Shown in pieces: positions 219 through 50,747 of a stretch of 64,000 nt of DNA (positions are counted from its first letter, which is position 1; each line of letters begins with the position of its first letter). The notes beneath the pieces were generated by a model that was not told the DNA's origin, searched no databases, and saw only the letters and a program-made list of their open reading frames with translations. The DNA is taken from the NCBI GenBank assembly GCA_004796375.1, contig QZLA01000001.1, positions 1 through 64,000 on the forward strand. The letters are read 5' to 3'. The translations under genes and the position numbers were made by a program. Source of the DNA: Desulfobacteraceae bacterium. Its GTDB lineage: Bacteria > Desulfobacterota > Desulfobacteria > Desulfobacterales > Desulfobacteraceae.

Positions 219-851
219 ATGACAGATTTTAATGAAATGAAAGAAGCACTGGTTGCCTGTGATACAGTCAAGCTCACAGGCCTTGTTGATACAGCTCTCG
301 GTCAGGGTACACCGGCCTCAGATATTTTGAATCAGGGGCTGATCGCCGGTATGGATATTGTGGGCGAAAAGATGGAAAACGGTGACATGTTTATTCCGGA
401 AGTCCTGATGGCGGCACAGGCCATGGGCGAATGCATGACCGTCCTGAAACCCCTGTTGGGTGAAGGCGAGACCACCGGTGCCGGCAACGTGCTCATCGGC
501 ACGGTTAAAGGCGATCTGCACGATATCGGTAAGAACCTGGTGGCCATGATGATGGAAAGCGCCGGCCTGACCGTTCACAACCTTGGCGTGGATATCGATC
601 CGGCCGAATTCGTCACCCAGATCAAGGAGAAAGGCGCCAACATTGTCTGCCTGTCCGCCCTGTTGACCACCACCATGCCGGCCATGAAACAGACCGTGGA
701 CGCCATCGTGGAAGCTGGTCTGAGAGACCAGGTTAAAATCATGGTGGGCGGCGCACCCGTGACCCAGGCATTTGCCGATGAGATCGGTGCGGACGGATTT
801 GCGGCCGACGCAGGCTCTGCCTCCAAACTGGCCAAACAGCTTGCCGCATAA
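219..851 (+). CDS. Corrinoid protein of the MtbC/MttC/MtgC family
   Basis: This 210-residue protein should carry a corrinoid cofactor that shuttles a methyl group between a substrate methyltransferase and a second methyltransferase. Residues 1-85 form the helical cap domain and residues 88-210 the Rossmann-like B12-binding domain. The base-off/His-on motif GDLHDIG is at 98-104, with His101 as the lower cobalt ligand, followed by GVDI and the SALLTTTM and GGAPV segments typical of the family. Length matches MtbC/MttC. A good ribosome site (AAAGGAG) precedes the ATG. The next gene begins 11 bases after the stop and encodes the likely methyl acceptor enzyme; the substrate methyltransferase is probably the MttB homologue at 4447-5856. 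Confidence 0.93.
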   Translation: MTDFNEMKEALVACDTVKLTGLVDTALGQGTPASDILNQGLIAGMDIVGEKMENGDMFIPEVLMAAQAMGECMTVLKPLLGEGETTGAGNVLIGTVKGDLHDIGKNLVAMMMESAGLTVHNLGVDIDPAEFVTQIKEKGANIVCLSALLTTTMPAMKQTVDAIVEAGLRDQVKIMVGGAPVTQAFADEIGADGFAADAGSASKLAKQLAA

Positions 852-862
852 AGGAGACACCC

Positions 863-1663
863 ATGTTTGAAGTGATTGGTGAACGAATCAACACCTCCAG
901 GAAAAAAGTCCAGGAAGCCACGGCCAACAGGGATGCCGATTACATTGTCGATGATGTTAAAAAGCAGCAGGCGGCTGGTGCCGCGTTTATAGACGTCAAC
1001 GCCGGTGCCCGGATCGGGCACGAAGAGGAAGACATGAAATGGCTGCTTGAAACCATCCAGCCCGTGGTTGATGTCCCGCTGGCCCTGGACTCTCCGGATC
1101 CGGCCATCCTTGAAATGGCGTTTGCCATGGTAGACAAAGCGCCAATGATCAACTCCATTAGCCTTGAAAAAGAGCGATTTGACACCATGATGCCTTTCCT
1201 TTCAGGCAAGACCTGCAAAGTGATTGCCCTGTGCATGGACGATAACGGCATGCCCTCCTCGTCTGATGATATCATTGCCCGGGCAGACACACTGGTCAAG
1301 GAACTCAACAACATCGGCATCCCGACAGACGCTATCTACGTCGATCCCCTGGTTCAGCCCATTTCCACGGATACCAATAAGGGGATAATGGTACTGGATG
1401 CCGTTCGAAGCATCAAAGCCGAATACCCTGAAGTTCATATTACCGGCGGCCTGTCCAACATCTCGTACGGCCTGCCCCAGCGCAAGATCATCAACCGCAC
1501 CTTTGTGACCCTGATGATGGATGCCGGGATGGACTCAGCCATTATCGATCCCCTGGATGACAAAATCATGGCAGCCATAAAGACGGCTGATATGCTGCTG
1601 GGCAAGGATGCGTTCTGCATGAATTACCTGAAAAGTGTCCGAGCAGGAGTGATTGAAAGCTGA
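863..1663 (+). CDS. Methyltetrahydrofolate:corrinoid methyltransferase (AcsE/MtgA-like, pterin-binding)
   Basis: This 266-residue TIM-barrel protein of the pterin-binding (DHPS-like) superfamily should transfer the methyl group between methyl-corrinoid protein and tetrahydrofolate in the cytoplasm. Visible signatures are IGERIN at the N-terminus, DVNAG at 44-48, LDSP at 75-78, INS at 96-98, the DPL at 161-163 and GGLSN at 195-199. Asp76, Asn97, Asp161 and Asn199 sit where the characterised AcsE enzyme has its pterin-binding Asp, Asn, Asp and its catalytic Asn. It has the AcsE/MtgA length and lacks the B12 domains of MetH. RBS AAAGGAGA precedes the start. Its stop overlaps the start of the next gene by one base (TGATG), implying translational coupling with the PylB-like enzyme. 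Confidence 0.9.
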   Translation: MFEVIGERINTSRKKVQEATANRDADYIVDDVKKQQAAGAAFIDVNAGARIGHEEEDMKWLLETIQPVVDVPLALDSPDPAILEMAFAMVDKAPMINSISLEKERFDTMMPFLSGKTCKVIALCMDDNGMPSSSDDIIARADTLVKELNNIGIPTDAIYVDPLVQPISTDTNKGIMVLDAVRSIKAEYPEVHITGGLSNISYGLPQRKIINRTFVTLMMDAGMDSAIIDPLDDKIMAAIKTADMLLGKDAFCMNYLKSVRAGVIES

Positions 1664-2790
1664 TGTCCCGGTTTCGCCTGTCCGATATACTGCACGGCCG
1701 CCTGGATCACGGGGGTGGTGTGAGTCATTATCAAGACCTTTCTAATGATCAGATCAAGTGTCTTCTGAACCTGTCTGAACCTGAAGATCTGGATATGCTT
1801 TTTAGGGCGGCCCGTGCGGTCCGGCACGCTTATTTCGGGAACACGGTTTTTTTATACGGATTCCTCTATTTTTCCACCCACTGCAGGAATAACTGCTGTT
1901 TCTGTCAGTACCGGCGGGACAATACCGGACTCATACGCTACCGGAAATCACAAAAAGAGATCCTGCAGGCGGCGGTAGATATGAGGAACTCCGGGATTCA
2001 CCTGGTTGACCTGACCATGGGAGAGGATCCCGGACTCTATTCAGCCGTTGAATCCGGCCAGAAGCCACTGACATCAATGGTGCGTCAAGTTATGGACGCC
2101 ACCGGGTTGCCGGTCATGATCTCGCCCGGCGCAGTGTCGGATCAAACACTCAACGACCTGGCCGATGCCGGTGCGGACTGGTATGCCTGTTACCAGGAAA
2201 CCCACAGCCCGAACCTTTACAAAACCCTTCGTCCGGGACAAAGCTATGGCCACCGGGTCAGCAGAAAACAGCATGCCCGATCATTGGGCATGCTCATCGA
2301 GGAGGGAATCCTCACCGGTGTCGGTGAAACGTCTGAGGAGATTGCAGACTCAATTCAATGGATGTGCCGCTTTGGCGTGGACCAGGCCAGGGTCATGACC
2401 TTTGTGCCCCAGGATGGCACCCCCATGGCCGACAAACCATTCCAGGGATCGCTAAAAGAACGGATCATTATTGCCGTCATGCGCCTGGTCCTCGGTGATG
2501 TCCTGATTCCGGCCTCCCTGGACGTGGACGGGCTTGACGGGCTTGAGGCGCGCATCAATGCGGGTGCCAATGTGGTGACCTCCATCGTCCCGCCGGACCA
2601 GGGGCTTGCCGGCGTGGCCAATCCATCTCTGGATATCGAAGATTCACGCCGGACCCTGGACCGGATCCTGCCGGTCATCCGTACCTGCGGCCTTGAACCG
2701 GCCACGGCACAGGAATATCAACAATGGATAATTAACAGGCAACGCAGTGTTCGTGACACCCCACGCAACCTGGAAAAGTGTGCCTGCTGA
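1663..2790 (+). CDS. pylB: PylB-family radical SAM protein (methylornithine synthase-like)
   Basis: A 375-residue radical SAM protein. The [4Fe-4S] motif CxxxCxxC is at Cys74, Cys78 and Cys81 (CRNNCCFC), preceded by the aromatic run YGFLYFSTH, as in the BioB/HydE/PylB group. The glycine-rich LTMGEDP, the ETHSPNLY segment and the GVGET motif match PylB more closely than HydE or BioB. Characterised PylB turns L-lysine into 3-methylornithine, the first pyrrolysine precursor. Here the gene overlaps the methyl-THF transferase by one base and no pylC, pylD, pylS or pylT is visible, so the activity may be the known one, with partners elsewhere, or a related mutase reaction. The family assignment is firm; the substrate is inferred. 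Confidence 0.75.
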   Translation: MSRFRLSDILHGRLDHGGGVSHYQDLSNDQIKCLLNLSEPEDLDMLFRAARAVRHAYFGNTVFLYGFLYFSTHCRNNCCFCQYRRDNTGLIRYRKSQKEILQAAVDMRNSGIHLVDLTMGEDPGLYSAVESGQKPLTSMVRQVMDATGLPVMISPGAVSDQTLNDLADAGADWYACYQETHSPNLYKTLRPGQSYGHRVSRKQHARSLGMLIEEGILTGVGETSEEIADSIQWMCRFGVDQARVMTFVPQDGTPMADKPFQGSLKERIIIAVMRLVLGDVLIPASLDVDGLDGLEARINAGANVVTSIVPPDQGLAGVANPSLDIEDSRRTLDRILPVIRTCGLEPATAQEYQQWIINRQRSVRDTPRNLEKCAC

Positions 2791-2823
2791 TTATATTGCA
2801 GTATTTTTCTCATCCTTACCCCA

Positions 2824-2854
2824 GGGGGATCCGGAACTTTCTTCCGGATCCCCC
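2824..2854. terminator. Perfect 13-bp stem-loop between convergent genes
   Basis: Arms at 2824-2836 and 2842-2854 (GGGGGATCCGGAA against its exact complement) enclose a five-base CTTTC loop. It lies between the converging pylB-like and lysR genes, so it probably ends transcription from both sides. No T-run follows on either strand, so it is either factor-assisted or an mRNA-stabilising hairpin. Confidence 0.6.
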
Positions 2855-2885
2855 GAATACACCCGTTCAATCTTACCCGTCAATC

Positions 2886-3749
2886 TTAATTGATATGTGA
2901 CTGAGACACCAGGTCAAGAAATGCGCTAAGGGGTTTGGATTCATGGGCACCCTTACGCCGCACAAACATGATAGGAACAGATGCCAGAGACGAATCAAGG
3001 CGTTGGATGGACACCACACCTTGCTTCACGGCGCTCTCAACCGTGGAAAACGGAAGAATACTGATGCCCATCCCGGCAGATATGCATTTGACGATACCGT
3101 CGGATGACCCCAGCTCAATTTGCCTTCGAGGCGCTAAACCATTCGCCTGGAGCCATTGTTCCAGCCGTTCGCGGTAGGCACAGGGCCGGGGGAACACCAG
3201 GATACTTTTTTGCGCGGCATCCAAAAGCCGGTCATTTCCCGTAGGAGAAACAATCACCAGTTCCTCGTAAAAGGCTTCTGACCATTGAATACCTGGTGTG
3301 CGATAGCCATCCGTAACAAATGCACCTTCAACCTCATAGTCCAGAACCTTCTTATTCAGCTCTGTGCTCGTACCGGTAATCAGGGACAGCTCCACCTGGG
3401 GATACTGCATATGGTATCGAGCCAGAAGCTTGGGCAGGCGAATGGCGGCAATAGACTCAAATGCACCGATCAGCAAAGGCCCTTGAACCAGGTCATCATC
3501 CAGAAGTACCTGCTTGGCATCTTTTTCCAGATGGATGATCTGCCTGGCATAATCCAGAAGCACATGTCCGGCCGGTGTCAGGATCATCCCCCTGGATTTA
3601 CGGTGAAACAGCAGGGTTTCCAGCTCCTTTTCGAGATTCTTAATCCTGGAGGTGACATTGGACTGGACACAGTGCAGGCGCTCAGCAGCCCCTGACACAC
3701 TGCCGGCTTCTGCAACCGCTTGAAACATTTTGAGATGGGTGATTTCCAT
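2886..3749 (-). CDS. LysR-family transcriptional regulator
   Basis: A 287-residue LysR regulator beginning at MEITHLKMF, the usual LysR start; an upstream TTG would add 11 unusual residues. The winged helix-turn-helix covers residues 1-60 (AVAEAGSVSGAAERLHCVQS, then VTSRIKNLE), and a LysR substrate-binding fold follows from about 85 (GPLLIGAFE) to 280. The late segment SAGMGISILP is typical of the effector domain. It is transcribed away from the DUF2284-MttB pair across a 133-base gap with a dyad centred near 3774. By LysR convention it probably autoregulates and activates that divergent pair, with a methylated amine or its product as effector; the effector is a guess. Confidence 0.92.
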   Translation of the reverse strand: MEITHLKMFQAVAEAGSVSGAAERLHCVQSNVTSRIKNLEKELETLLFHRKSRGMILTPAGHVLLDYARQIIHLEKDAKQVLLDDDLVQGPLLIGAFESIAAIRLPKLLARYHMQYPQVELSLITGTSTELNKKVLDYEVEGAFVTDGYRTPGIQWSEAFYEELVIVSPTGNDRLLDAAQKSILVFPRPCAYRERLEQWLQANGLAPRRQIELGSSDGIVKCISAGMGISILPFSTVESAVKQGVVSIQRLDSSLASVPIMFVRRKGAHESKPLSAFLDLVSQSHIN

Positions 3750-3765
3750 TTTGATATCACTTTTA

Positions 3766-3782
3766 TTGATATTTACTATCAA
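3766..3782. promoter_or_regulatory. Candidate LysR operator (TTGAT-N7-ATCAA)
   Basis: A 17-base interrupted palindrome, TTGAT then seven bases then ATCAA, lies in the divergent lysR / DUF2284 interval, 17 bases upstream of the lysR start. It fits the T-N11-A form of LysR-type sites. The surrounding 60 bases are strongly AT-rich, as expected for a promoter. A TTGACT at 3793-3798 could be a -35 element for the rightward genes, but no convincing -10 accompanies it. Confidence 0.45.
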
Positions 3783-3882
3783 ATCAAATTAATTGACTTG
3801 ATATTATAGAATACGTAAAGATACTGTCAACAGCTTTTTTGAGGCTCAATGAAACAATGACCCCAAATAACAGGAGTGGATG

Positions 3883-4383
3883 ATGGACAAGTATATTGAA
3901 ATGGCAAAAACCCATGACGCCGTAAATGCCCTGGTGATTTCACCCGGGGATATCGTATTTGACCGCAGGGCAATTCTTAAATGCCTTTGGGGATGTGAAG
4001 ATCAGACCGAACCCAATCGCATCAAATGCGGGTCAAGGGGACTGACATTTGAAGAGGCCCAAAAAACGATTCATGAATACCACCATATCCTGTTGATCCA
4101 TCACCACGATAACGTAAAACTCAGCCGTGCGGCACGGAAAATTGAACAGTCCGCCTTTCTGGACGGATATTATTTTGCCAGTGCCATGCATTGCTGTCAT
4201 CTTTGCAAGGATTGCAGAATTGATGTGGGCAAACCCTGCCACACCCCATTGAAGATACGCCCCTGTGATCAGAGTTTTGGTATCGACGTGTACCAGACCG
4301 CACGGAACCTGGGTCTTCCCTGTGCTCCCCTCCAGTCCAGGTCTGAGGTTCCCAACCGATACGCCTTTGTCCTGATTGACTGA
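3883..4383 (+). CDS. DUF2284 cysteine-rich putative metal-binding protein
   Basis: A 166-residue cytoplasmic protein with many cysteines. An early group (CLWGC at 34-38, then a Cys near 49) and a dense CCHLCKDC group around residues 107-114 are followed by further Cys in GKPCH, RPCD and LPCAP. This pattern is that of DUF2284 proteins, thought to bind metal or an Fe-S cluster; no reaction is established. The second of two adjacent ATGs is chosen because AGGAG lies six bases before it. It precedes the MttB homologue by 63 bases and faces lysR, which suggests a supporting role in methylamine or betaine demethylation, such as reductive activation of the corrinoid protein. That role is inference. 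Confidence 0.8.
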   Translation: MDKYIEMAKTHDAVNALVISPGDIVFDRRAILKCLWGCEDQTEPNRIKCGSRGLTFEEAQKTIHEYHHILLIHHHDNVKLSRAARKIEQSAFLDGYYFASAMHCCHLCKDCRIDVGKPCHTPLKIRPCDQSFGIDVYQTARNLGLPCAPLQSRSEVPNRYAFVLID

Positions 4384-4446
4384 TTCTATTCAAATGCGGT
4401 ATGTTGACTATGAACAGGAGTATCAAATGAGCATGAAAGGAGCATG

Positions 4447-5856
4447 ATGAAACACCTGCTGGACACACCGACCATTGAATCGATACGAGACAAAGCCTCA
4501 GACATCTTGGAGACCATTGGTGTTGAATTTGAAACGGAAAAAGCAAGACAGCTGTTGAAAAATCACGGTGCAAAATTAGAGGGAAAACGAGTAGTTATCT
4601 CGGCAGATCTTGTGGAAAAAGCGCTTGATTCTCTGCCAAAGGTTGAAGACCGGGCTGGGAACGGCCGGCAGTTGATGGCATCCTCTCCTTTTGGCAATGC
4701 CCCCATGATCCTGGATGATATGACCGGAAATGGACGCAGGGGCACCATTCAGGATGCCGTCAAAATGTACCGGCTGGCTGAAACATCAGAATTGTATACA
4801 TCTGCCAACCCATCGGTGGTTGACCCTGAGGGCAATGACAGTGAGGATCCGTTTATAGGCCAGGTGGCCCTGATGCTGAAATACTCCGATCGCTGGCCCA
4901 GCCTGGGACTGCGCGCCACCCATTCCAACACTAAAAACGGTGATGTGTATTCCAGTGCAAAAGCGGCTATCCGGCTGATCCGGGAAATCAAAGAGGAGGA
5001 ATTCTCCCCGGTCATGGCACAGGGAATCTGTCCCATGGCCCCCCTCTCCTATGATGAAGAGGCACTGATCAACCTGGAGGTATTGGTCGATGAACAGCAG
5101 GAGATAACCATTATTCCCTGTACATTGACATTTATGACCGGTCCGGAAAGCTTAATGGGGATTGTCATTCATGATATCGCCATCTGCCTGGCAGGTGCCG
5201 TATACGTGCAGTTGCTGAGGCCGGGCACACCACTGAAATTCAGCAACTCTTCAACCATGACCGATATGCGGACCCTGCAGCCGGCCTATGGCAGCCCGGA
5301 ATACCTGAACGTACAGATCATGTTCCATGAGGTCTGCCGTCACTTTCACATGGACAGTTCCCTGGGAGGGTGCTTTTCCGATGGGACCAAAAGCGACTAC
5401 CAGGGGGGATTTGAATCATGCATGACTGCACTGGCCCCCTTTTTCATGACATCGGCAAACAAGATCTGGTGCTCCCCCGGCCACATGGCGGCATTTGCCG
5501 GTGCCAGTTTCAAAAAAATGATCCTTGATGAAGAGATGATTCAAGCCTGCAATCGTCTCCTGCAGGGGCTTGACCTTGCCATTGACCCGCAACTCAAGGA
5601 AAAATTGAAAAAGGGCATGGAGGCAAAGAGCTTTTTGACCGTCGGCTCGTCAGAGATTTACCGTAAAGAGCAGCAGGTCAGCCGCATCTTTGACCGGAGC
5701 GGCATCTCCCCTCAGGGTTCAGACCCAAAGACCATACTGGAGAAGCGGGTATCCGATGAAATTGAAGCGAGACTTGCCAGGTATCGTCTTCCGGAACGAA
5801 CCAAGACCCAGAAAAAGCTGTTGCAGCAATACCTGCCGACATCGTGCCGGTATTAA
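4447..5856 (+). CDS. MttB-superfamily methyltransferase without pyrrolysine
   Basis: A 469-residue member of the trimethylamine methyltransferase (MttB) superfamily, close to the usual length. The conserved NPSVV, QGICPMAPLSYDEEAL, GTPLKFSNSS and SLGGCFSDGTKSDYQGGFES regions are present. In true MttB the last region holds pyrrolysine encoded by an in-frame UAG; here the frame runs through it (about residues 312-325) with ordinary codons, and the gene ends at TAA. Such members demethylate quaternary amines: glycine betaine, proline betaine, carnitine or gamma-butyrobetaine. The methyl group would pass to the corrinoid protein at 219-851 and on to THF. AAGGAG precedes the second of two tandem ATGs, which I take as the start. 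The exact substrate cannot be read from sequence. Confidence 0.9.
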   Translation: MKHLLDTPTIESIRDKASDILETIGVEFETEKARQLLKNHGAKLEGKRVVISADLVEKALDSLPKVEDRAGNGRQLMASSPFGNAPMILDDMTGNGRRGTIQDAVKMYRLAETSELYTSANPSVVDPEGNDSEDPFIGQVALMLKYSDRWPSLGLRATHSNTKNGDVYSSAKAAIRLIREIKEEEFSPVMAQGICPMAPLSYDEEALINLEVLVDEQQEITIIPCTLTFMTGPESLMGIVIHDIAICLAGAVYVQLLRPGTPLKFSNSSTMTDMRTLQPAYGSPEYLNVQIMFHEVCRHFHMDSSLGGCFSDGTKSDYQGGFESCMTALAPFFMTSANKIWCSPGHMAAFAGASFKKMILDEEMIQACNRLLQGLDLAIDPQLKEKLKKGMEAKSFLTVGSSEIYRKEQQVSRIFDRSGISPQGSDPKTILEKRVSDEIEARLARYRLPERTKTQKKLLQQYLPTSCRY

Positions 5857-18429: not shown

Positions 18430-19083
18430 GTGAAAAAGGGGTTTAGAGTTTCAAATCAAACGTGTGCAGCAACACCGATCACCGGCCAGGAGGGTTCCGC
18501 CCTGGTGATTGTGGTCATTATTCTATCATTTGTGGCAGGTATCGGGCTGATCTCCAGCCAGACCACCATTACCGAGCTTACCCTGGCCGGTCATGACAGC
18601 CGCTATAAAACCGCATTCTTCAATACGGACTCAGGGATCTACGGCATTCCCAAAGTGGTGTCCCAGGCCGTGAATGAAAAATCAACCCCGTTTTTGAACA
18701 GCGGCTCCGATGATATCCCAGAGACCACCGATGTCCTGGAAACCGCTTCCCCTTTCCTCTACTTTGACCTGGGCACGGATGACGCAAATACCGGTACCCG
18801 GACATTTTTCAGGGAGGTCTCCGGATTTGAAGACTATGATTCGGACAGTGATATCTCTTTTTCCAATGACGGTACCCATGATACCGAAGTGGATGTGGAA
18901 AGGATTAAAGCGTTTATCATGTATGGCGGCGGGGCCGAATTTGCCAGTGGTGCCGACGGCAGCGGCACCACATACAAAGGCATCTATTTCGGCATTGATT
19001 CCCTTGGGGAGGGTCCCATGCAGGCGGAAACCAATATCGCCGCATTGTATGTTAAAGTTATCGGTGCAGCAGGAGGGTTATGA
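18430..19083 (+). CDS. pilX: Minor pilin PilX-like
   Basis: A 217-residue protein. After a 20-residue lead, QEGSALVIVVIILSFVAGIGL is the PilX-type membrane helix, with a degenerate prepilin signal (Gly/Ser, no Phe1), as in PilX relatives. The following SSQTTITELTLAGHDSRYKTAFFNTDSG segment matches the PilX helix-to-globular junction. GTG is preferred over an ATG six bases earlier because AGGAG is six bases before the GTG and abuts the ATG. The stop overlaps the proposed start region of pilY1. Confidence 0.8.
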   Translation: MKKGFRVSNQTCAATPITGQEGSALVIVVIILSFVAGIGLISSQTTITELTLAGHDSRYKTAFFNTDSGIYGIPKVVSQAVNEKSTPFLNSGSDDIPETTDVLETASPFLYFDLGTDDANTGTRTFFREVSGFEDYDSDSDISFSNDGTHDTEVDVERIKAFIMYGGGAEFASGADGSGTTYKGIYFGIDSLGEGPMQAETNIAALYVKVIGAAGGL

Positions 19084-19085
19084 TT

Positions 19086-22000
19086 ATGAAACATTTTTTA
19101 CAACTTACACTCATCGTTGTGTTCACCCTGATGATGTCTACAGGACCGGCGCACGCTGCTGAGCCGGTCATGGCCGATTACACCTCCTACCCGCTGTTCC
19201 TCACCGACACGGTGGAACCCAATATCCTGATCATGCTGGATAACTCCGGCAGCATGAACTACAACGCATACGGGCCGGGAACCGACAGCGGCAACCTGGT
19301 GGGCGATTCCTACCTGGGCGTCCCCTTCAACACCATCATCTCCACGGTCACCACCTCCAGCGACGATGCCGAAGAAAACAATACCGATGACAATGCCTAT
19401 TTCAACAATGCCGACCTGGATCTGGGAAGAGATATCGGCACCACCCACCCGGACCAGATCATCGGCGTCAGGTTCCAGGATGTTAAAATCCCTGAGGGAG
19501 CCACCATTGACAATGCATACATCGTATTCACCTGCATGCAGGTCTACGGCGCGGCCCAATCCGATATCCAGGTCAATATCAACGCCCATGACACCGCCAA
19601 TTCAGGTACGTTTACTGCCGATACCGCCGACCTGTCCAACCGGACCAAAACCTCTGCCACCGTATCCTGGACCATCCCGTCCTGGAACACCGTGGATGAG
19701 GAGCACAGCACCCCCAACCTGAAAACCGTTGTCCAGGAAATCGTGGACCGGGATGACTGGAAGGAGGGCAATGATATCTCCTTTATCATCAGCAACCCCA
19801 GCCCGCCAGACAGCGGCCGGATGGCCTATGCCCACGACCAGGATGCCAACAAGGCGGCACGGCTGGTGATCGAGATCTCCGATGAAACCGCCAAGCGGTA
19901 TTACGGCTATTTCAACCCCGAGTATTTTTATTTCTGGGACTCCAATGATTTTGTCCTGACCTATAAAAAAGTGGCCTATGTGGGTACCCCCGGATCCGGC
20001 GGGTACTGGGAGGCCGAGGATATGAGCGGCAGCGCTGTGAACCTGACCGATGCCCTGGTTGTGAGTGAATCCCTGTGGGACGGAAACTGGATGAACTGGA
20101 TGACCATGCGCCGCATTGACGTGCTCAGGAAGGTGATCATGGGCGGCCTGGCCACCTCCAGGACCGGGGGCGGAAACCAGACCAATTACGGGGAATCTCC
20201 GCCCACCTTCAAGCGGATCACCGCGGGCGGTGATGAGATCGAAACCAGCTACAATTATGTCCGGAATTTCGACTCCACCGGAACGGCAGCCGTATCCCCC
20301 TATCACGGCAACTATTATTTTGAAATGGAGGGAGGCTACATCTATGTGGGATCGGATATGGATCCTTCCGACGGGTACACGGCCAGATATGACATCCGGG
20401 TAAAGAAAAATGTAAGTGTGGAACCCCGGGATTTTTACAATTATGACAGCGGCGACAACCTGGCCGGGGTGCTCCAGCGTTACTGGAACAAGGCCCGCTG
20501 GGGCAATGAATTCTTCAATTACGGTACGGGCAACAACCTGAGCGGCGGCAGAATTGCCGCCACCATCGGTACGGGGATCACCTCTTTGATTACCGATCTT
20601 CAGAACACCCACTGCGACACCCATACCCCGCTGGCCGAGTCCTATTACCTGGCCATGCAGTATTTCAAGCAGGAGGATGTGGAAGCGGGCCTTGAATTTC
20701 CAAACAATGCCGTGCCCAATGCCAACCTCGGGGATGATCCCTATTACAACAGTGCCCTGGGGGAATATGTCTCCTGTGCCAAGAGTTTTGTGATCCTCCT
20801 GACCGACGGGGCATCCACCAAGGACAGCATGATTCCTTCCGATCTCAAGGATTATGATCCTGACAGCAATGACAATATTGCCTGCGATGAAACCACTGAA
20901 ACCGGGTGTGATTATATCCAGGGAGGGACCGATTTTCTGGATGACGTGGCCCTGTACGCTCGGACCAATGACCTGCGGGACGATCTTAGCGGCGAGCAAA
21001 ACCTGATTCTGTACACGGTGTATGCCCTGAGTGATGACGACAATGCCAGGAAACTGCTCAAGGATGCGGCCCGAAACGGCGGGTTTGAAGACCGCAACAG
21101 CAATAACCTGCCAGACTTGGATGCGGAGTGGGATAAGAACGGCGACGGCAACCCGGACACCTATTTTGAGGCCACGGACGGCTATGCCCTGGAGCGGGCC
21201 CTGGGGAACGCCATCACAGATATCCTCAGACGCGCTGCCTCAGGAACCTCGGTGTCCATTATCTCTTCTGCCACCGAAGGTGAAGGAAACATCATCCAGG
21301 CTTTTTTCCGCCCGGCAGTTCCAAAGGGGGAGGATGATATCAAGTGGGTCGGGTCCCTTCACTCGCTCTGGATCGATCCCAGGGGAAATATCCGTGAAGA
21401 CACCAACGGCAACCACGGCCTGGACCTGGATGCCGACCGGATTCTCGAATACACGGACGTCAACGGCGAAACCAAGGTCAAACGGTTTGCCGTTTCAGCC
21501 GGTGCAGAATATCCGGATATTTCTGCAGCCACACCTGTAGACACGGTCAAACTGACCGAAATTATCCCCATATGGGAAGCCGGCTCCAACCTGGATATCA
21601 TGGATCCTGACGATAGGAACATTTTTACAAGGATTGACATGGACGAGGACCAGGTGATTGATGAAGGCACCGTGGCAGGCGCAATCGATGCCGCGGATGA
21701 TCCCCTCGACAACACCGGGGAACTGGTGCGGTTCGATACCGATGTTCCCGCCCTCAAACCCTACCTGGGTGTGGAAAGCAATGCGACCTGGAGCGAACTG
21801 GGCGCGGCCCATGATGACCGTTTCAACAACATCGTCAACTTCATCCGGGGCGAGAACAGCGGGTTTACCGGAGGTGCCCTGATCCGGGACCGCAACATTG
21901 ACGGCCTGGCCAACCATACCTGGAAACTGGGTGACATTGTTCACTCCACCCCGATTTTTGTTACGGCCCCCCTGGAAAACTACGACCTGCTGTACGGGGA

Positions 22001-23801
22001 TGAATCCTATTTCAACTTTTACAAGGCCAACAAAGACCGGGAGGTGATGGTATATGTCGGTGCCAATGACGGTATGATCCACGCCTTTACCTCATGGGAC
22101 TATAACCGGTCCACCAAAACATTTACCCGGCCGGCCGCCGCACCCGCCACAGAATCCATTGGTGACGAGCTGTGGGCCTACATCCCCCAGAGCCTTCTTC
22201 CCCATCTCAAATGGCTCCCGTCACTGGATTACACCCATGTCTACTACAACGACCTGAGGCTGAAGGTGTTTGATGCCAAAATCCTTCCGGACGATACCCA
22301 TGTGGTAGACGCGGACAGCGACCCGGACTGGGGCACATTTATCCTTGCCGGTATGAACTACGGCGGGCGGCACATCTGGGCCAAAGGGGATTATGATGAT
22401 GGTGCCGGAAATATCACCAATGAAACCCGGCATTTCTTCCCCTCATACACCCTGATCGACGTGACCCAGCCCAGAAATCCCATGGTGGTGTGGGAAAAGA
22501 GCTACAGCATCCCCTCCAACCCCGGGGAAAGTGCAGACAACCATACCGATATGGGACTGGCAGTCAGCTATCCGGCCGTCATGAAGGTCAAGGAGAAGTG
22601 GTTTGCCGTGATCGGCTCCGGGCCTAAGGATTTTGAGGGGACCAGTGCGGATAACGGCCACGTGTTTGTTGTCGACCTGGCCACGGGCGCGCCGTATAAA
22701 AACGGGACCAACGACTGGCTATTCCAAGGAGCGAACACCAAAGCGTTCATGGGATCTGCCGCCGCACTGGACAAGAACATGAACTATAACGTGGATGCGG
22801 TCTACATCGGGGAAACCTATGAGTCCAACAACCCGGACTGGGAGGGGTCTTTGTACAAGATCACCATTCCCTTTGTCTGTGACGACATTGCCTGTGATTT
22901 CCCTACCACCTACGGGATTACCGAGGACGGCTCCTATGTGGATGATCCCCTGGATGCCACCAATCCGTGGCTCATGCACAAGATGTTTGCCTCTCCCGGC
23001 CCGGTGACTGCGGCACCCTCCATCAGTGTGGATCCCTTAGGCAACTCATGGGTGTATTTCGGCACCGGACGCTACTTTTCAAATGCTGATGAAGCCAATG
23101 TCGAGCAGCAGTATATGTTTGGTATCAAAGATCCCTTTTTCAACAAGGAACACGGCGGGGTGGATACCATATTCAATGATAATTATTATATGAATTATGC
23201 CTCATCCCTGACACTTTCCGATGCCGACCTTCAAAATATGGATGACTACATGGTGTTAACGGACCGAAGCGTGTTTGACGGCACGACCTATCTGCCCGGC
23301 GGCTACTATGACCTGCTTGACCTGATCTATAATGCTGACGGATGGGAGCGGCTCCTTCCCATCTCCGGGGAACGGGTGATTAATAAACCCGGCCTCATCG
23401 GCGGTGCGGTGTTGATGCCCACGTTTGTGCCGGCATCGGACATCTGCGGATTTGGCGGGACCAGTTACCTGTACGGGTTATTCTACCTGACCGGAACCTC
23501 TTATTTCAACCCGATTTTCCACGGCGGTGGCGGCATTGCCGGAGCAGCCGACGGTAAACTCGAAGTCACCATTGATGAGGAAACCAAGTACCAGACCATT
23601 GATAAAATTTCCCTGGGAGAAGGGCTGGCATCTACACCCGGTATCCACGTCGGGCGGCAGGATGAATATGACTCAGGGGATTCTGATGAACCCAATACCG
23701 CGTCCAGCTTCACCCAGACCAGTACGGGCAGGATCGTTAAAGAAGATATCGAACCGCCGCTCAGGATCAGAAGCGGCCTGAAATCCTGGCAGGAGAAATA
23801 A
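19086..23801 (+). CDS. pilY1: PilY1-type pilus tip adhesin with inserted DNRLRE-like domain
   Basis: A 1,571-residue exported protein, longer than typical PilY1 (about 1,160). A signal peptide ending GPAHAA is followed by a von Willebrand A start with the MIDAS motif DNSGSM near residue 55; the matching LLTDGAS is near 566. Between them, about residues 105-270, lies a beta-rich segment (LDLGRDIG, IGVRFQDVKIPEGATIDNAYI, VVQEIVDRDDW, FII, ARLVIEI) of the DNRLRE/disaggregatase-related carbohydrate-type fold. The C-terminal half is the PilY1/PilC beta-propeller (YVGANDGMIHAF near 990) with Asp-rich calcium loops such as DMDEDQVIDEG. It should sit at the pilus tip and control adhesion and retraction. 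CAGGAGGG precedes the second in-frame ATG. Confidence 0.93.
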   Translation: MKHFLQLTLIVVFTLMMSTGPAHAAEPVMADYTSYPLFLTDTVEPNILIMLDNSGSMNYNAYGPGTDSGNLVGDSYLGVPFNTIISTVTTSSDDAEENNTDDNAYFNNADLDLGRDIGTTHPDQIIGVRFQDVKIPEGATIDNAYIVFTCMQVYGAAQSDIQVNINAHDTANSGTFTADTADLSNRTKTSATVSWTIPSWNTVDEEHSTPNLKTVVQEIVDRDDWKEGNDISFIISNPSPPDSGRMAYAHDQDANKAARLVIEISDETAKRYYGYFNPEYFYFWDSNDFVLTYKKVAYVGTPGSGGYWEAEDMSGSAVNLTDALVVSESLWDGNWMNWMTMRRIDVLRKVIMGGLATSRTGGGNQTNYGESPPTFKRITAGGDEIETSYNYVRNFDSTGTAAVSPYHGNYYFEMEGGYIYVGSDMDPSDGYTARYDIRVKKNVSVEPRDFYNYDSGDNLAGVLQRYWNKARWGNEFFNYGTGNNLSGGRIAATIGTGITSLITDLQNTHCDTHTPLAESYYLAMQYFKQEDVEAGLEFPNNAVPNANLGDDPYYNSALGEYVSCAKSFVILLTDGASTKDSMIPSDLKDYDPDSNDNIACDETTETGCDYIQGGTDFLDDVALYARTNDLRDDLSGEQNLILYTVYALSDDDNARKLLKDAARNGGFEDRNSNNLPDLDAEWDKNGDGNPDTYFEATDGYALERALGNAITDILRRAASGTSVSIISSATEGEGNIIQAFFRPAVPKGEDDIKWVGSLHSLWIDPRGNIREDTNGNHGLDLDADRILEYTDVNGETKVKRFAVSAGAEYPDISAATPVDTVKLTEIIPIWEAGSNLDIMDPDDRNIFTRIDMDEDQVIDEGTVAGAIDAADDPLDNTGELVRFDTDVPALKPYLGVESNATWSELGAAHDDRFNNIVNFIRGENSGFTGGALIRDRNIDGLANHTWKLGDIVHSTPIFVTAPLENYDLLYGDESYFNFYKANKDREVMVYVGANDGMIHAFTSWDYNRSTKTFTRPAAAPATESIGDELWAYIPQSLLPHLKWLPSLDYTHVYYNDLRLKVFDAKILPDDTHVVDADSDPDWGTFILAGMNYGGRHIWAKGDYDDGAGNITNETRHFFPSYTLIDVTQPRNPMVVWEKSYSIPSNPGESADNHTDMGLAVSYPAVMKVKEKWFAVIGSGPKDFEGTSADNGHVFVVDLATGAPYKNGTNDWLFQGANTKAFMGSAAALDKNMNYNVDAVYIGETYESNNPDWEGSLYKITIPFVCDDIACDFPTTYGITEDGSYVDDPLDATNPWLMHKMFASPGPVTAAPSISVDPLGNSWVYFGTGRYFSNADEANVEQQYMFGIKDPFFNKEHGGVDTIFNDNYYMNYASSLTLSDADLQNMDDYMVLTDRSVFDGTTYLPGGYYDLLDLIYNADGWERLLPISGERVINKPGLIGGAVLMPTFVPASDICGFGGTSYLYGLFYLTGTSYFNPIFHGGGGIAGAADGKLEVTIDEETKYQTIDKISLGEGLASTPGIHVGRQDEYDSGDSDEPNTASSFTQTSTGRIVKEDIEPPLRIRSGLKSWQEK

Positions 23802-34340: not shown

Positions 34341-34721
34341 TTAGTGTTCCCAGAGACCGTGAAGGTTGCAGAATTCTCTTGCAGTGACCTTTTCAGCATC
34401 TGTATAGAAGGTCGCTTCCGGTGCTTCGGAAGGATCCAGGAACTTTCTTTGAATCAGGGAACCGTTTTCTGAAACCAGCTCTATCCATACGATCCAGTGC
34501 TCCGGGGTCATGGGATGAGCCACGCTGCCGACCTTTACAAGATATCCGCCGTCAATTTTTTCAACTACAGGAACGTGTTTTTCCTGGGCCGCATCGACCG
34601 TGTTTGCCACCAGGCGGTCCATGGGTTTCCCGCAGCACATGACCGGGGGTTGTTCTGCATGAAGAACCTGAACGATGTTGCCACACTTTTCACATTTATA
34701 GATACCGTATTTTTCTGCCAT
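34341..34721 (-). CDS. dfx: Desulfoferrodoxin (superoxide reductase, 2Fe type)
   Basis: A 126-residue two-iron superoxide reductase. Centre I (desulforedoxin-like) uses Cys10, Cys13, Cys29 and Cys30; centre II uses His49, His69, His75, Cys118 and His121, with Glu47-Lys48 next to the first His as in the characterised enzymes. It turns superoxide into peroxide without making O2, with rubredoxin as donor. It lies 26 bases downstream of rubrerythrin on the same strand, which then removes the peroxide. Confidence 0.96.
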   Translation of the reverse strand: MAEKYGIYKCEKCGNIVQVLHAEQPPVMCCGKPMDRLVANTVDAAQEKHVPVVEKIDGGYLVKVGSVAHPMTPEHWIVWIELVSENGSLIQRKFLDPSEAPEATFYTDAEKVTAREFCNLHGLWEH

Positions 34722-34747
34722 TGTTATGTCTCCTTTGGTTTAAGGGA

Positions 34748-35326
34748 TTAATAATTTTCCGGTTTTACTTCAAAATGCGCTTTGGCGTGGGCGCATGCCG
34801 GGCACAGTTCGGGAGGTTCTGCACCGACATGGTTGTACCCGCAGTTCCTGCAGCGCCATGCTGTACTGGCATCTCTTTTAAACACCTGGTCCGTATCGAT
34901 ATTTTTCATCAGGGCCAGGTAACGCTCCTCATGATACAACTCGGCCACGGCAATGGATTCAAATGTTGCGGCAATATCTTCAAATCCCTCTTCACGGGCC
35001 TTTGCAGCAAACTCGGGATACATGGAAGTATGCTCATAGTTTTCACCCTCGGCGGCGGCCTTGAGGTTATCCATGGTTGTTCCGATCACACCGGCGGGAA
35101 ATGCTGCGGTAACTTCCAGTTCCTCACCGGTCTCCAGATATTTGAACAGGCGTTTGGCATGCTCTTTCTCATGGTTTGCTGTCTCTTCAAAAATGGACTG
35201 GATCTGGACATACCCTTCTGCTTTGGCTTTGGATGCATAATAGGTATATCTGTTCCGTGCCTGTGACTCTCCTGCAAATGCTTTCAGTAAATTTTTTTCA
35301 GTTTCGGTTCCTTTTAACGCCGGCAT
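34748..35326 (-). CDS. rbr: Rubrerythrin
   Basis: A 192-residue classical rubrerythrin: an N-terminal diiron four-helix domain (KAFAGESQARNRYTYYASKA, ANHEKEHAKRLFKYL, ESIAVAELYHEERY) and a C-terminal rubredoxin domain with CRNCGY and CPACAH supplying four Cys. It reduces hydrogen peroxide to water. Co-transcribed with desulfoferrodoxin, giving a full superoxide-to-water route. Confidence 0.96.
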   Translation of the reverse strand: MPALKGTETEKNLLKAFAGESQARNRYTYYASKAKAEGYVQIQSIFEETANHEKEHAKRLFKYLETGEELEVTAAFPAGVIGTTMDNLKAAAEGENYEHTSMYPEFAAKAREEGFEDIAATFESIAVAELYHEERYLALMKNIDTDQVFKRDASTAWRCRNCGYNHVGAEPPELCPACAHAKAHFEVKPENY

Positions 35327-47628: not shown

Positions 47629-48477
47629 TCACAGGATCTCAAGAAGCGCCTCCACATCATCCATATCAGCAGTAAAAGACGCCATGATTCTGGAGACACC
47701 TTCTGCATCAAGACCCAAGGCATCCATGGCCTGAGTATGGAACTGGTACGACAGTGCATCTGCGCCGACGGCCAGCCCAAGCATCATGCAGATACAGTCT
47801 GCCAGATATACCACGATAATATCCTTTTCCGCCTGCATGGATTCATCCTGGAGATGGTGGTTTCTGATGATCTTGACCATGCGTGGAGAAAACTTCCACA
47901 TTTTGGCGATCATGGCCCCCAGTTCAGCATGATCGATACCGATCACCTGCTTTTCGGCTTCCTGAAAACTGAAGTTATTTTCCACGACCAACTGGTCAAT
48001 TTTCTGTATTTTATCGGCAACCACCCCATCCAGGATGATTTTCCCCAGATCCTTGAGCAGGGCAGCCGTAAATATGGTGTTGATGTTCTCCATGGACAAT
48101 TGCCGGGCCACCTGCTTTGCGATCAAGGCCGAGGAAACGGCATACTTCCACATGGCGCCCTCCTGCAGGCCGTAACCTTCCTGTTTGCCTGTCATGATGG
48201 CCGCCCCGGATTTTAACAGGACCAGCTCCACGATCTGATCCGTTCCCAGGAACATGGCGGCTTCTTCAACGGATTCAGCAGGATTCTTGAGCCCGAAAAA
48301 GGCGGAGTTGCAGGTCTTGAGCAGCATGGCGGTCACCGCCGGGTCATATTTAATGATGGCTGCGATTTCATCCATGGAGCTGCCGGGTTGATCCACAGCC
48401 TCTATGATCCGGTTAATCACTGCAGGAATCGGCTTAAGTTTTTTTATTTCCTTGATCAGTTCCTGAATCGCCGTCAT
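47629..48477 (-). CDS. HDOD-domain signalling protein
   Basis: A 282-residue HDOD-domain protein (HD-related output domain). It shows IPAVINRIIEAV, SSMDEIAAIIKYDPAVTAMLLKTCNSAFFGL (in parts) and VIGIDHAELGAMIAKMWKFSPRMVKIIRNHH, the HDOD pattern in which the His/Asp are not those of an active HD hydrolase. HDOD proteins take part in chemotaxis or stress signalling. Its start overlaps the CheD stop by four bases, so the two are coupled. Confidence 0.9.
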   Translation of the reverse strand: MTAIQELIKEIKKLKPIPAVINRIIEAVDQPGSSMDEIAAIIKYDPAVTAMLLKTCNSAFFGLKNPAESVEEAAMFLGTDQIVELVLLKSGAAIMTGKQEGYGLQEGAMWKYAVSSALIAKQVARQLSMENINTIFTAALLKDLGKIILDGVVADKIQKIDQLVVENNFSFQEAEKQVIGIDHAELGAMIAKMWKFSPRMVKIIRNHHLQDESMQAEKDIIVVYLADCICMMLGLAVGADALSYQFHTQAMDALGLDAEGVSRIMASFTADMDDVEALLEIL

Positions 48478-48956
48478 ATTTTCACCTCTTGAGGATTTCT
48501 TGAGGTTTTGACAAATACATCGCCAGTATCAATTTCCAGTTTGAGGCTTCGATTCACATTTCCACCCATATCCTCGATATCCAGGTCAATGTCCACCGCG
48601 ACCAGGCATTTTGCCAGGGCTGTCCTGTTTTTTTTCCCGATACTGTGGGGCTCGCTCTGGTTCATGATCTCGGAACCGCCAATGGCCAGCACCTTTATCC
48701 GGTCTTTTTGGCCGCCGAGGGCTGAAAATGCCTCCAGCAGCTCCGGAATCCCGGTATCGGCGAACATCAGGGGTTGTTTTTCAGCCGCACCTTTCTCGAG
48801 AGTTGAATCAGGCAATATAAAATGGAGTATGCCGCCAACCTTGGATACCGGGTCATAGACGGCCAGGCCAATACCTGACCCCACACCACTGGCCACCAGA
48901 GTATCGTTTTTCTCTTTGCTGACCTGCATCTGGGCGATGCGAATGTTTTTTTCCAA
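48474..48956 (-). CDS. cheD: CheD-family protein lacking the catalytic cysteine
   Basis: A 160-residue CheD homologue starting at TTG with GAGGA seven bases upstream. CheD deamidates glutamines of chemoreceptors with a Cys-His-Thr triad. Here the GSC motif reads G26-S27-G28 (GVGSGIGLAVYDP), so the Cys is Gly; the His is kept at 45 (GGILHF), 17 residues on, as in active CheD. A later AIGGSEI is conserved. It is therefore probably a binding protein, not an enzyme. It overlaps the HDOD gene by four bases; no other chemotaxis gene is near. Confidence 0.88.
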   Translation of the reverse strand: MEKNIRIAQMQVSKEKNDTLVASGVGSGIGLAVYDPVSKVGGILHFILPDSTLEKGAAEKQPLMFADTGIPELLEAFSALGGQKDRIKVLAIGGSEIMNQSEPHSIGKKNRTALAKCLVAVDIDLDIEDMGGNVNRSLKLEIDTGDVFVKTSRNPQEVKI

Positions 48957-49232
48957 AATGCTGTCCTCTCATTTCCGTTCTTGATCCAAAGAGCCATCGT
49001 ATAGGACCGACTTCAATTTTACCGATTTAGGATACCGGTTGCGGAAAATGTGATCCGGGCTGAGCCATGAATCCTTTGAAAAACAGGCCCATACCCACAT
49101 TTTTACTCTAGCCGGCAGCAAAGATCAAGTGATATGACGAATCATTACACTTTTTCTCTCTTCTTTTTTCATAGTATTTCATATAAGATTAGGTCGTTGT
49201 GACAAGCTGCTGACACCACCATAGGAAAACAG

Positions 49233-50747
49233 ATGAATATGACCCGCACCCTGATGATCGTATGCCTGATCGCACTTCTGGCACTATCCAGCATCCAAAC
49301 CCGCCAGGCTTGCGGCTTTGTTGATTTTAACCGGTTTCCGGCCACTGCGCCGAGCCAGGTGCCGGGCAGCACTGACCAGTGGATATATACCACTGGAGAA
49401 ACCAACCCGTTACCCGGCTGTTTCATGACCACCCACGATTCGGCCGGATGGCGGTCTGCCTCAACCTACCCGCTGCCGAATGACTCGGTATTTGATCTGT
49501 TCTACCGATACGGCAGCACCATCAACAGCAGTCACATGGGTTTTGAAACCTATGGATTCCTTGACATTGACAACCGGCATGCCGTCATCGGGAACAGTCT
49601 GAGGTATCAGGTTACCGGGGGTAAAAATACCATCACCTGCCCGGAAGGAAGCAATGGGACTCTCCCCTGCAATGCCAGCGGGCTTGAGGTAAAAACCAAA
49701 GAGCATTACCTGAATTTTTTAAAAAACGGCCAGAACCCGGTAGCGGGAGATATTGCCGTGGGTCATCCCTACCTTTACTTTGCCAACACCAGCCCCAGCC
49801 ACAACCCGGTACCGTTTCCCCAGGCCCAGGGGAAAAACCGGCTCAGCCTTTATGTATTTCTCCCCGGCGAGCTGGCCAACGGGCCTGGCGGGCAAGAGGT
49901 CCCCCCCTATATTACGCTGAATATCGGTCCGTATGACGGTACCGGCGGGCACTGGTACCACCACTTCACCTTTCAGGGGGGCGGATGGGCCCACCTGATC
50001 GTGGATGCCCACCCCCAGCACAACAATGCCTGGAGCAATGCGGCAGCCTACCCCTATCCCAGTTCCAGCCTGCGGGACAGGGGGCTTGATTATTTCAACC
50101 ATATGTACCGGTGGTATATCACCCCCAAACCCTATGATGGAATTGCCGTACCGCCCTATGCCATGTGGATCGATGAAATCGAGTATCAATTCGATCCGGA
50201 ACCCCAGAACAACGAAACCATATGTTCCCCTTCTGTGATGCTTCATTCAGATACACGGGTGTTTGAAATCGGATTTATGGACAAATATAAAAACAACCGG
50301 TACAGCCACGCCACCTATGAACTTCGATACGCGTTCCAAGCCATCACCAATGCCACCTGGTCCCAGGCCGTACCGGTAATGGTCCAGGCGGACAGCCGGT
50401 TTAATATCCTTGCCAGATCTGATGGCAGGTTTCAAAAGTGGTGGCCTTACTATCAGCAGGTGTGGGCGCCGTTTCGTCTCCAGGCCGAAGATGAAAAAAA
50501 ACTTCGTCCCGGAACAAGAATCCATTTTGCCGTCCGGGATGTTTCACAACAGAATACCAATTCCATGGATCCCAACAGTTCACTGACCGGAACCCCGAAA
50601 AAGGGGGGCAGAGACTACAGGGATCATGGCGACACTTTTGATTATACCGGTGATCAGGCCGTGCTTCACTTGATCAAGCGCCTGGATTACATCATTCCCA
50701 AAGCTGCACCCGCACCTTGGCCCCAGTTTCAATTGCTGCTGGAATAA
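49233..50747 (+). CDS. Large exported protein, unknown function
   Basis: A 504-residue protein with a signal peptide (MIVCLIALLALSSIQTRQACG) and a mostly beta, aromatic- and Asn-rich mature chain. The middle has GHWYHHFTFQGGGWAHLIVDAHPQHNN with several His, and six or so Cys (CFM, TCPEG, LPCNA, ICSP) that may pair. A carbohydrate-like or laminin-like beta-sandwich is possible, but I do not recognise a family. The ATG has AGGA seven bases upstream. It stands alone between the CheD gene and the MFS gene. Confidence 0.75.
   Translation: MNMTRTLMIVCLIALLALSSIQTRQACGFVDFNRFPATAPSQVPGSTDQWIYTTGETNPLPGCFMTTHDSAGWRSASTYPLPNDSVFDLFYRYGSTINSSHMGFETYGFLDIDNRHAVIGNSLRYQVTGGKNTITCPEGSNGTLPCNASGLEVKTKEHYLNFLKNGQNPVAGDIAVGHPYLYFANTSPSHNPVPFPQAQGKNRLSLYVFLPGELANGPGGQEVPPYITLNIGPYDGTGGHWYHHFTFQGGGWAHLIVDAHPQHNNAWSNAAAYPYPSSSLRDRGLDYFNHMYRWYITPKPYDGIAVPPYAMWIDEIEYQFDPEPQNNETICSPSVMLHSDTRVFEIGFMDKYKNNRYSHATYELRYAFQAITNATWSQAVPVMVQADSRFNILARSDGRFQKWWPYYQQVWAPFRLQAEDEKKLRPGTRIHFAVRDVSQQNTNSMDPNSSLTGTPKKGGRDYRDHGDTFDYTGDQAVLHLIKRLDYIIPKAAPAPWPQFQLLLE

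Follow-up and report, generated by a model that had tools for sequence, protein, structure and literature searches.

The window analysed here, a 64,000-nucleotide stretch from the genome of a Desulfobacteraceae bacterium, a relative of sulfate reducers, carries a CheD gene that lacks both the catalytic cysteine and the active-site threonine of its family and that overlaps a gene encoding an HDOD protein. The reading that we favor, with a probability of roughly 0.55, is that of an orphaned CheD-HDOD cassette that arose from a pair of the chemotaxis (che) operon type and in which CheD persists as a non-enzymatic partner. The CheD and HDOD families themselves are known, and what would be new, as far as sequence can tell, is a stray cassette of the two whose CheD is non-catalytic. 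Dead copies kept intact in related bacteria suggest that CheD can survive as a binding partner, not as an enzyme.

Results

A CheD protein with a rewritten active site

The window CheD passes the Pfam model PF03975 with 79.8 bits (E 2.1e-22; curated cut-off 25) and aligns with the T. maritima CheD chain 2f9z_C at E 1.2e-18. This alignment places Cys27, His44 and Thr21 of the T. maritima protein, which we take to be its catalytic triad, numbering included, opposite Gly28, His45 and Ala22, respectively; the Cys/His/Thr triad of CheD reportedly goes back to Chao et al. 2006. Among relatives of the Cys-bearing group, the catalytic column is a cysteine in 55/55 and the threonine column a threonine in 98% of the 55. 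The first-pass annotation had read the cysteine of the GSC motif as replaced by Gly28 and the catalytic His45 as kept; the first reading agrees with the 2f9z_C alignment and with the 55 Cys relatives, the second with the alignment to His44, and the loss of the threonine, which is additional to that annotation, strengthens the observation of a dead site. As for a second cysteine able to act, which had been named as a finding that would speak to the contrary, there is none: the sole cysteine of the protein, Cys117, lies inside a predicted helix (residues 106-120), distant from the active site in sequence and in a column that is not conserved. With both cysteine and threonine gone, it is well supported at the sequence level that the window CheD would be unable to act as a canonical receptor deamidase.

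An AlphaFold2 model of the protein, built on a six-row alignment, has a mean pLDDT of 86.9 and a pTM of 0.84, and its top PDB match is again 2f9z_C (TM 0.82/0.85, 2.2 A), from which the CheD fold is predicted to be retained. The best score against the NCBIfam CheD equivalog models is 101.7 bits, under the cut-off of 240, Cys relatives being unscored for comparison. Among 63 columns that are at least 93% conserved in the 55 Cys-bearing relatives, the window CheD is changed at 5/8 before residue 22, at 5/7 within residues 22-28 and at 10/48 after residue 28, 38/48 of the latter being kept. The strand 22-28, which reads TYSLGSC in Cys relatives, has become ASGVGSG. Glycine at the cysteine column is also found in five related genomes, all belonging to a single genus (g7), and the columns altered in 4/4 of the intact g7 copies are 3/7 at 22-28 (Tyr23, Leu25, Cys28) and 2/48 later. 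On these alignments, a rewritten active-site strand is common to the window CheD and the g7 Gly group, and the window copy adds a rewritten N-terminus.

The Met-Phe pair involved in CheC binding (B. subtilis residues 101-102; PMC3513319) is absent from the window CheD, where E-I-M follows GGS; E-I-L, Q-I-L and E-I-M are the commonest residues after GGS in the rows read. The lack of this signature makes a classical CheC an unlikely partner, despite two CheC-profile matches in the same genome.

Table 1. Features of the CheD-HDOD cassette in the window
Feature	Position	Strand	Basis
HDOD gene, 282 aa, ATG start, partner of CheD	47629..48477	-	Pfam HDOD
ATGA, overlap of CheD stop and HDOD start	48474..48477	-	sequence
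CheD-fold gene, 160 aa, TTG start; catalytic Cys and Thr both missing	48474..48956	-	ORF, Pfam, PDB match of model
His45 codon, retained catalytic His	48822..48824	-	sequence and 2f9z_C alignment
Gly28 codon at catalytic Cys column	48873..48875	-	sequence and 2f9z_C alignment
Ala22 codon at active-site Thr column	48891..48893	-	sequence and 2f9z_C alignment
GAGAGGA, likely ribosome-binding site, 7 bases 5' of CheD TTG start	48964..48970	-	by eye

The HDOD partner and the surroundings of the pair

The HDOD gene matches Pfam PF08668 with 177.5 bits (E 2.8e-52; curated cut-off 22.9). HDOD domains typically lack the catalytic HD pair, and residues 138-146 of the window protein read AALLKDLGK, with a lysine at what is presumably the position of the histidine in HD enzymes, whose motif we quote from general knowledge. 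The four-base overlap described in the first-pass annotation was confirmed (Table 1), and an identical overlap links CheD to HDOD in genomes G323, G361, G362 and G384 (loci L078, L125, L126 and L124). Likewise, the claim that no receptor or other chemotaxis gene lies near stood up to a tblastn search of the whole window with the proteins of the genome's own che operon, in which only the CheD and HDOD genes matched at E<=1e-3. A promoter scan gave one site, on the opposite strand, which is fewer than in shuffled sequences.

Divergent from the pair is a 504-aa ORF (49233-50747, plus strand) for which Pfam gave nothing at E<=0.01. Elsewhere, the window holds B12-binding, pterin-binding and MTTB-family genes (219-5856), a PilY1-type protein of 1573 aa (19080-23801) and a desulfoferrodoxin adjoining a rubrerythrin (34341-35326).

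CheD genes elsewhere in the genome

The draft assembly (410 contigs) contains four CheD genes. Contig C6 bears a che operon in which genes for MCP, CheW, a 125-aa ORF, CheA, CheD, HDOD, CheY, CheX, CheB, CheR and a further CheD follow each other in one direction (MCP, CheA, CheX, HDOD and the last CheD were named by Pfam; CheW, CheY, CheB and CheR by eye). The motif is GSC in the first CheD and GSG in the last, and the first CheD-HDOD pair is 47% (CheD) and 51% (HDOD) identical to that of the window. CheD adjoining HDOD is thus an ordinary arrangement in the chemotaxis operons of this family. Contig C108 encodes a natural CheD-HDOD fusion by Pfam (L006 5225-6652, minus strand) with a retained cysteine (GTC), and its presence in the same genome argues for a physical coupling of the two proteins. 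Cys-bearing CheDs therefore persist elsewhere in this genome, as the first CheD of C6 and the C108 fusion. Open frames of ~450-550 aa around a CheD match recur in many relatives.

HDOD-linked CheDs among relatives

The window HDOD finds matches in 58/86 genomes of the family at E<=1e-60. A close-relative search of genome contigs returned 5 loci at 35-45% identity. Among 67 distinct HDOD rows, which represent best-scoring and chosen loci and not each HDOD of each genome, 51 adjoin a Cys CheD, 5 an intact Cys-less CheD, 10 are without intact CheD (a pseudogene in G367 and nine HDODs without CheD) and 1 lies at a contig edge. Outside these rows, the HDOD frame is broken at L128, where no CheD was called, and at L130, whose neighbor is a Cys CheD within a che operon. 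The intact Cys-less copies are those of the window, G323, G361, G362 and G384, the last four belonging to genus g7. Since 51/56 intact HDOD-adjacent CheDs keep the cysteine, an HDOD neighbor is no predictor of a dead CheD; most HDOD-linked copies retaining the residue had been named beforehand as a finding against the proposal, and in its general form the proposal gives way.

A motif-pattern survey of 389 genomes of the order recovered a non-Cys codon (any first base but T) in 4/389, namely Gly in the window genome, G323 and G367 and Ser in G180; the same pattern with Cys occurs in 210/389 and with TCN (Ser) in 0/389. The pattern is strict and its counts are lower bounds, as it missed the Gly-CheDs of G361, G362 and G384, which are among the 389 and were recovered via HDOD, and the cheR-following CheD class described below lies beyond its reach.

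In the flanks examined (~1.5 kb at many loci), a che gene accompanies 0/5 Cys-less pairs and is also absent for 12/51 Cys pairs, 10 of these 12 stray Cys pairs forming one g7 group. Among the intact HDOD-adjacent CheDs examined, cysteine loss was seen only in stray copies, although ten stray g7 cassettes keep the cysteine. Stray context was also set against cysteine loss in a Fisher test, which was put aside because it used 10 stray Cys pairs where 12/51 were counted and the rows are related.

A few arrangements were seen in passing. The Gly-CheD of G384 (L124 2687-3166, minus strand) carries a cysteine two positions ahead of the lost one (SICSG), a single change that its three relatives do not share. 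At L116 (5946-8029), a CheD-less HDOD follows a gene of ~357-374 aa, GGDEF by Pfam at this locus, and a similar arrangement is found at L115, L117, L118, L121, L122, L123 and L128; by eye, a gene that begins in a similar way also lies before CheD(Cys)-HDOD-CheY in G380 and G385.

Origins of the cysteine-to-glycine change

On the HDOD tree, a clade in which the window joins the Gly pairs of g7 is rejected (p-AU 0.0014), as is a recent duplication of the genome's own operon copy (p-AU 0.0015). The window HDOD groups instead with that of G005, which has a Cys CheD, and with solo HDODs of g4 (support 86, not starred). A 73-row CheD tree joined the window and g7 copies with a support of 99, yet the window end branch is 2.1 long against a median of 0.096, and a single origin of all Gly-CheDs was not retained. 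Thirteen far or wrong-class rows (12 loci) were removed, also ahead of the conserved-column analysis above; on the resulting 60-row CheD tree without motif columns, the window copy can be placed with the g7 Gly group (p-AU 0.48), G005 (0.54), the operon copy (0.42) or G380/G385 (0.25). The CheD gene alone cannot place the window copy. Because the HDOD tree separates the two groups, the change from cysteine to glycine probably occurred on two or more occasions among HDOD-linked CheDs, provided that CheD and HDOD travelled together.

A second class of Cys-less CheDs

The CheD that follows cheR in the C6 operon (L005 9438-9956, plus strand) belongs to a different CheD subfamily and also has glycine at the cysteine column, where it could not act as a nucleophile. 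In this class (loci L004, L005, L120, L129, L134-L145, L147-L149 and L156-L165; operon position read in the window genome, G378 and G373), 28/30 readable loci of the same family are without cysteine (20 Ser, 8 Gly), and at L157 and L159 the histidine column is a leucine too. The cysteine-bearing exceptions, L014 (G015) and L152 (G002), sit on long branches apart from the rest; L146 (G027), whose cysteine column is unreadable, stands outside the 30 loci. Copies of the class in other families (G043, G048 and G046) have the cysteine. The cheR-following class has a much wider distribution than the window gene and may be the better lead.

Two further cases were noticed. A second CheD with GTS at the catalytic motif is found near a Cys CheD in G180 (L079 8055-8507, plus strand; between CheX-like and CheY-like ORFs by eye) and G045 (L031 918-1370, minus strand), and the two form one starred branch, which is another cysteine loss. 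A CheD-like ORF with a GAG motif (L070 1183-1674, plus strand) was seen in CAIKAA010000568.1 of an uncultured Fibrobacteres, with a GSC CheD on the same contig.

Purifying selection on the Cys-less copies of g7

Pairwise dN/dS is 0.24-0.34 (6 pairs) for the four intact g7 Gly-CheDs and 0.15-0.23 (6 pairs) for their HDODs, next to 0.14-0.30 (15 pairs) for six Cys-CheDs from that genus. When two independent g7 Gly-CheD pairs are pooled, 43/727 non-synonymous sites have changed versus 45/226 synonymous ones (p=3.9e-9). The Cys-less CheDs of g7 are therefore under purifying selection, with a constraint that is at most slightly weaker; this selection was measured in g7 and not in the lineage of the window.

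Discussion

The cassette can be accounted for as follows. The window pair would be a stray copy of the operon cassette, which in this family is CheA-CheD-HDOD-CheY-CheX. The stray CheD would have lost the catalytic cysteine and threonine, and with them canonical receptor deamidation. It would then be translated together with HDOD and act without catalysis, possibly as a binding module for the HDOD protein, which it would hold or gate. Alternatively, it could occupy CheD-binding sites on receptors or on CheC/CheX-like proteins with no modification taking place. Absent deamidase activity, HDOD binding, and competition or gating are all things that we infer. A non-enzymatic binding role is nevertheless plausible because four Gly-CheD genes are under purifying selection and because a B. 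subtilis mutant discussed below separates binding from catalysis. The binding scaffold proposed in the first-pass annotation gains in plausibility from this selection and this precedent; for the window protein itself, such a role is something we infer, and decay is a live rival.

Indeed, the cassettes could be kept for HDOD alone, CheD losing first its site, then its frame and finally the gene, with the window copy at a late stage. We regard this as quite possible, if somewhat short of an even chance. The Gly-CheD of G367 is a pseudogene with a frameshift and a stop codon next to an open HDOD, and 9/67 HDOD rows have no CheD, although such solo HDODs could also stem from copies that never had one. 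Of 53 pairs, that of the window has the most divergent CheD (its mean identity to Cys-CheDs is 0.449, the next lowest being 0.563), beside an ordinary HDOD (0.591, for a Cys-pair mean of 0.612), and its CheD-HDOD identity difference falls 4.5 SD below 48 Cys pairs, compared with 0.9-1.6 SD for the four g7 copies. On the other hand, those four copies are intact at the dN/dS given above with glycine at the cysteine column in each, and the window gene still has its frame, the overlap with HDOD and, apart from the active-site strand and the N-terminus, most of the conserved columns. When neutral evolution was simulated by substitutions only, down to 56% identity, the frame stayed open in 18/400 and 10/400 runs (3-5%), so that the open frame favors some past constraint, but not strongly.

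That the window CheD is still catalytic, via another nucleophile or on another substrate, is in our opinion very improbable. His45 and the fold are retained and the G384 copy has its nearby cysteine, but the only cysteine of the window protein is the remote and unconserved Cys117, and the threonine is gone as well. A one-base sequencing or assembly error at the Gly28 codon deserves hardly any credit: the GGT codon differs from TGT at a single position and the assembly is a draft, but four neighboring conserved residues are altered too and the same glycine recurs in the five g7 genomes.

Beyond the window, the stray HDOD-linked Gly-CheDs and the Ser/Gly class of the main operon might together represent recurrent, selectively maintained non-catalytic CheDs of this family. 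They would serve as dedicated binding subunits that divert the receptor- or phosphatase-reading surface of CheD to HDOD outputs outside the che operon, or that compete with active CheD. We put this broader proposal forward tentatively and consider it rather doubtful at present.

Several published systems bear on these views. The CheD-F102E variant of B. subtilis has about normal deamidase activity but weak binding to CheC and receptors, and its chemotaxis is null-like; it has been argued from mutants that CheD of this species acts chiefly through binding rather than through deamidation (PMC3513319). CheD has been described as an interaction hub in a halophilic archaeon (PMC3579733), and HDOD proteins are described as changing swimming in several bacteria (PMC11004494, PMC11813219). 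Geobacter che clusters include CheD, and the paper on them leaves HDOD unmentioned (PMC2577667). In the open-licence literature, we found no paper on CheD together with HDOD and, judging largely by title, no report of Cys-less CheDs. If naturally dead CheDs stay under purifying selection, the claim of binding over deamidation becomes testable beyond B. subtilis, and the constant HDOD neighbor offers a concrete candidate partner for Cys-less CheDs.

Comparison with known systems

The window CheD shares its fold, its Pfam family and the catalytic histidine column with T. maritima 2f9z_C and B. subtilis CheD, but these have the catalytic cysteine and threonine and the window protein has neither. 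It further departs from the receptor deamidase CheDs by the missing CheC-binding Met-Phe and by the absence of adjoining che genes.

Closer to home, the CheD-HDOD pair of the C6 operon resembles that of the window in gene order, lengths (~160 and 282 aa) and four-base overlap, whereas its CheD keeps GSC and sits in a full che operon. The C108 fusion likewise has CheD followed by HDOD, but as a single chain with the cysteine kept (GTC). The cheR-following class has its cysteine column replaced like the window CheD, but is not HDOD-paired and lies inside the che operon where its position was read. Finally, the stray g7 pairs (G323, G361, G362 and G384) share with the window the cysteine-to-glycine change, the stray position and the four-base overlap, although their HDODs fall in a separate clade and their CheDs are less diverged.
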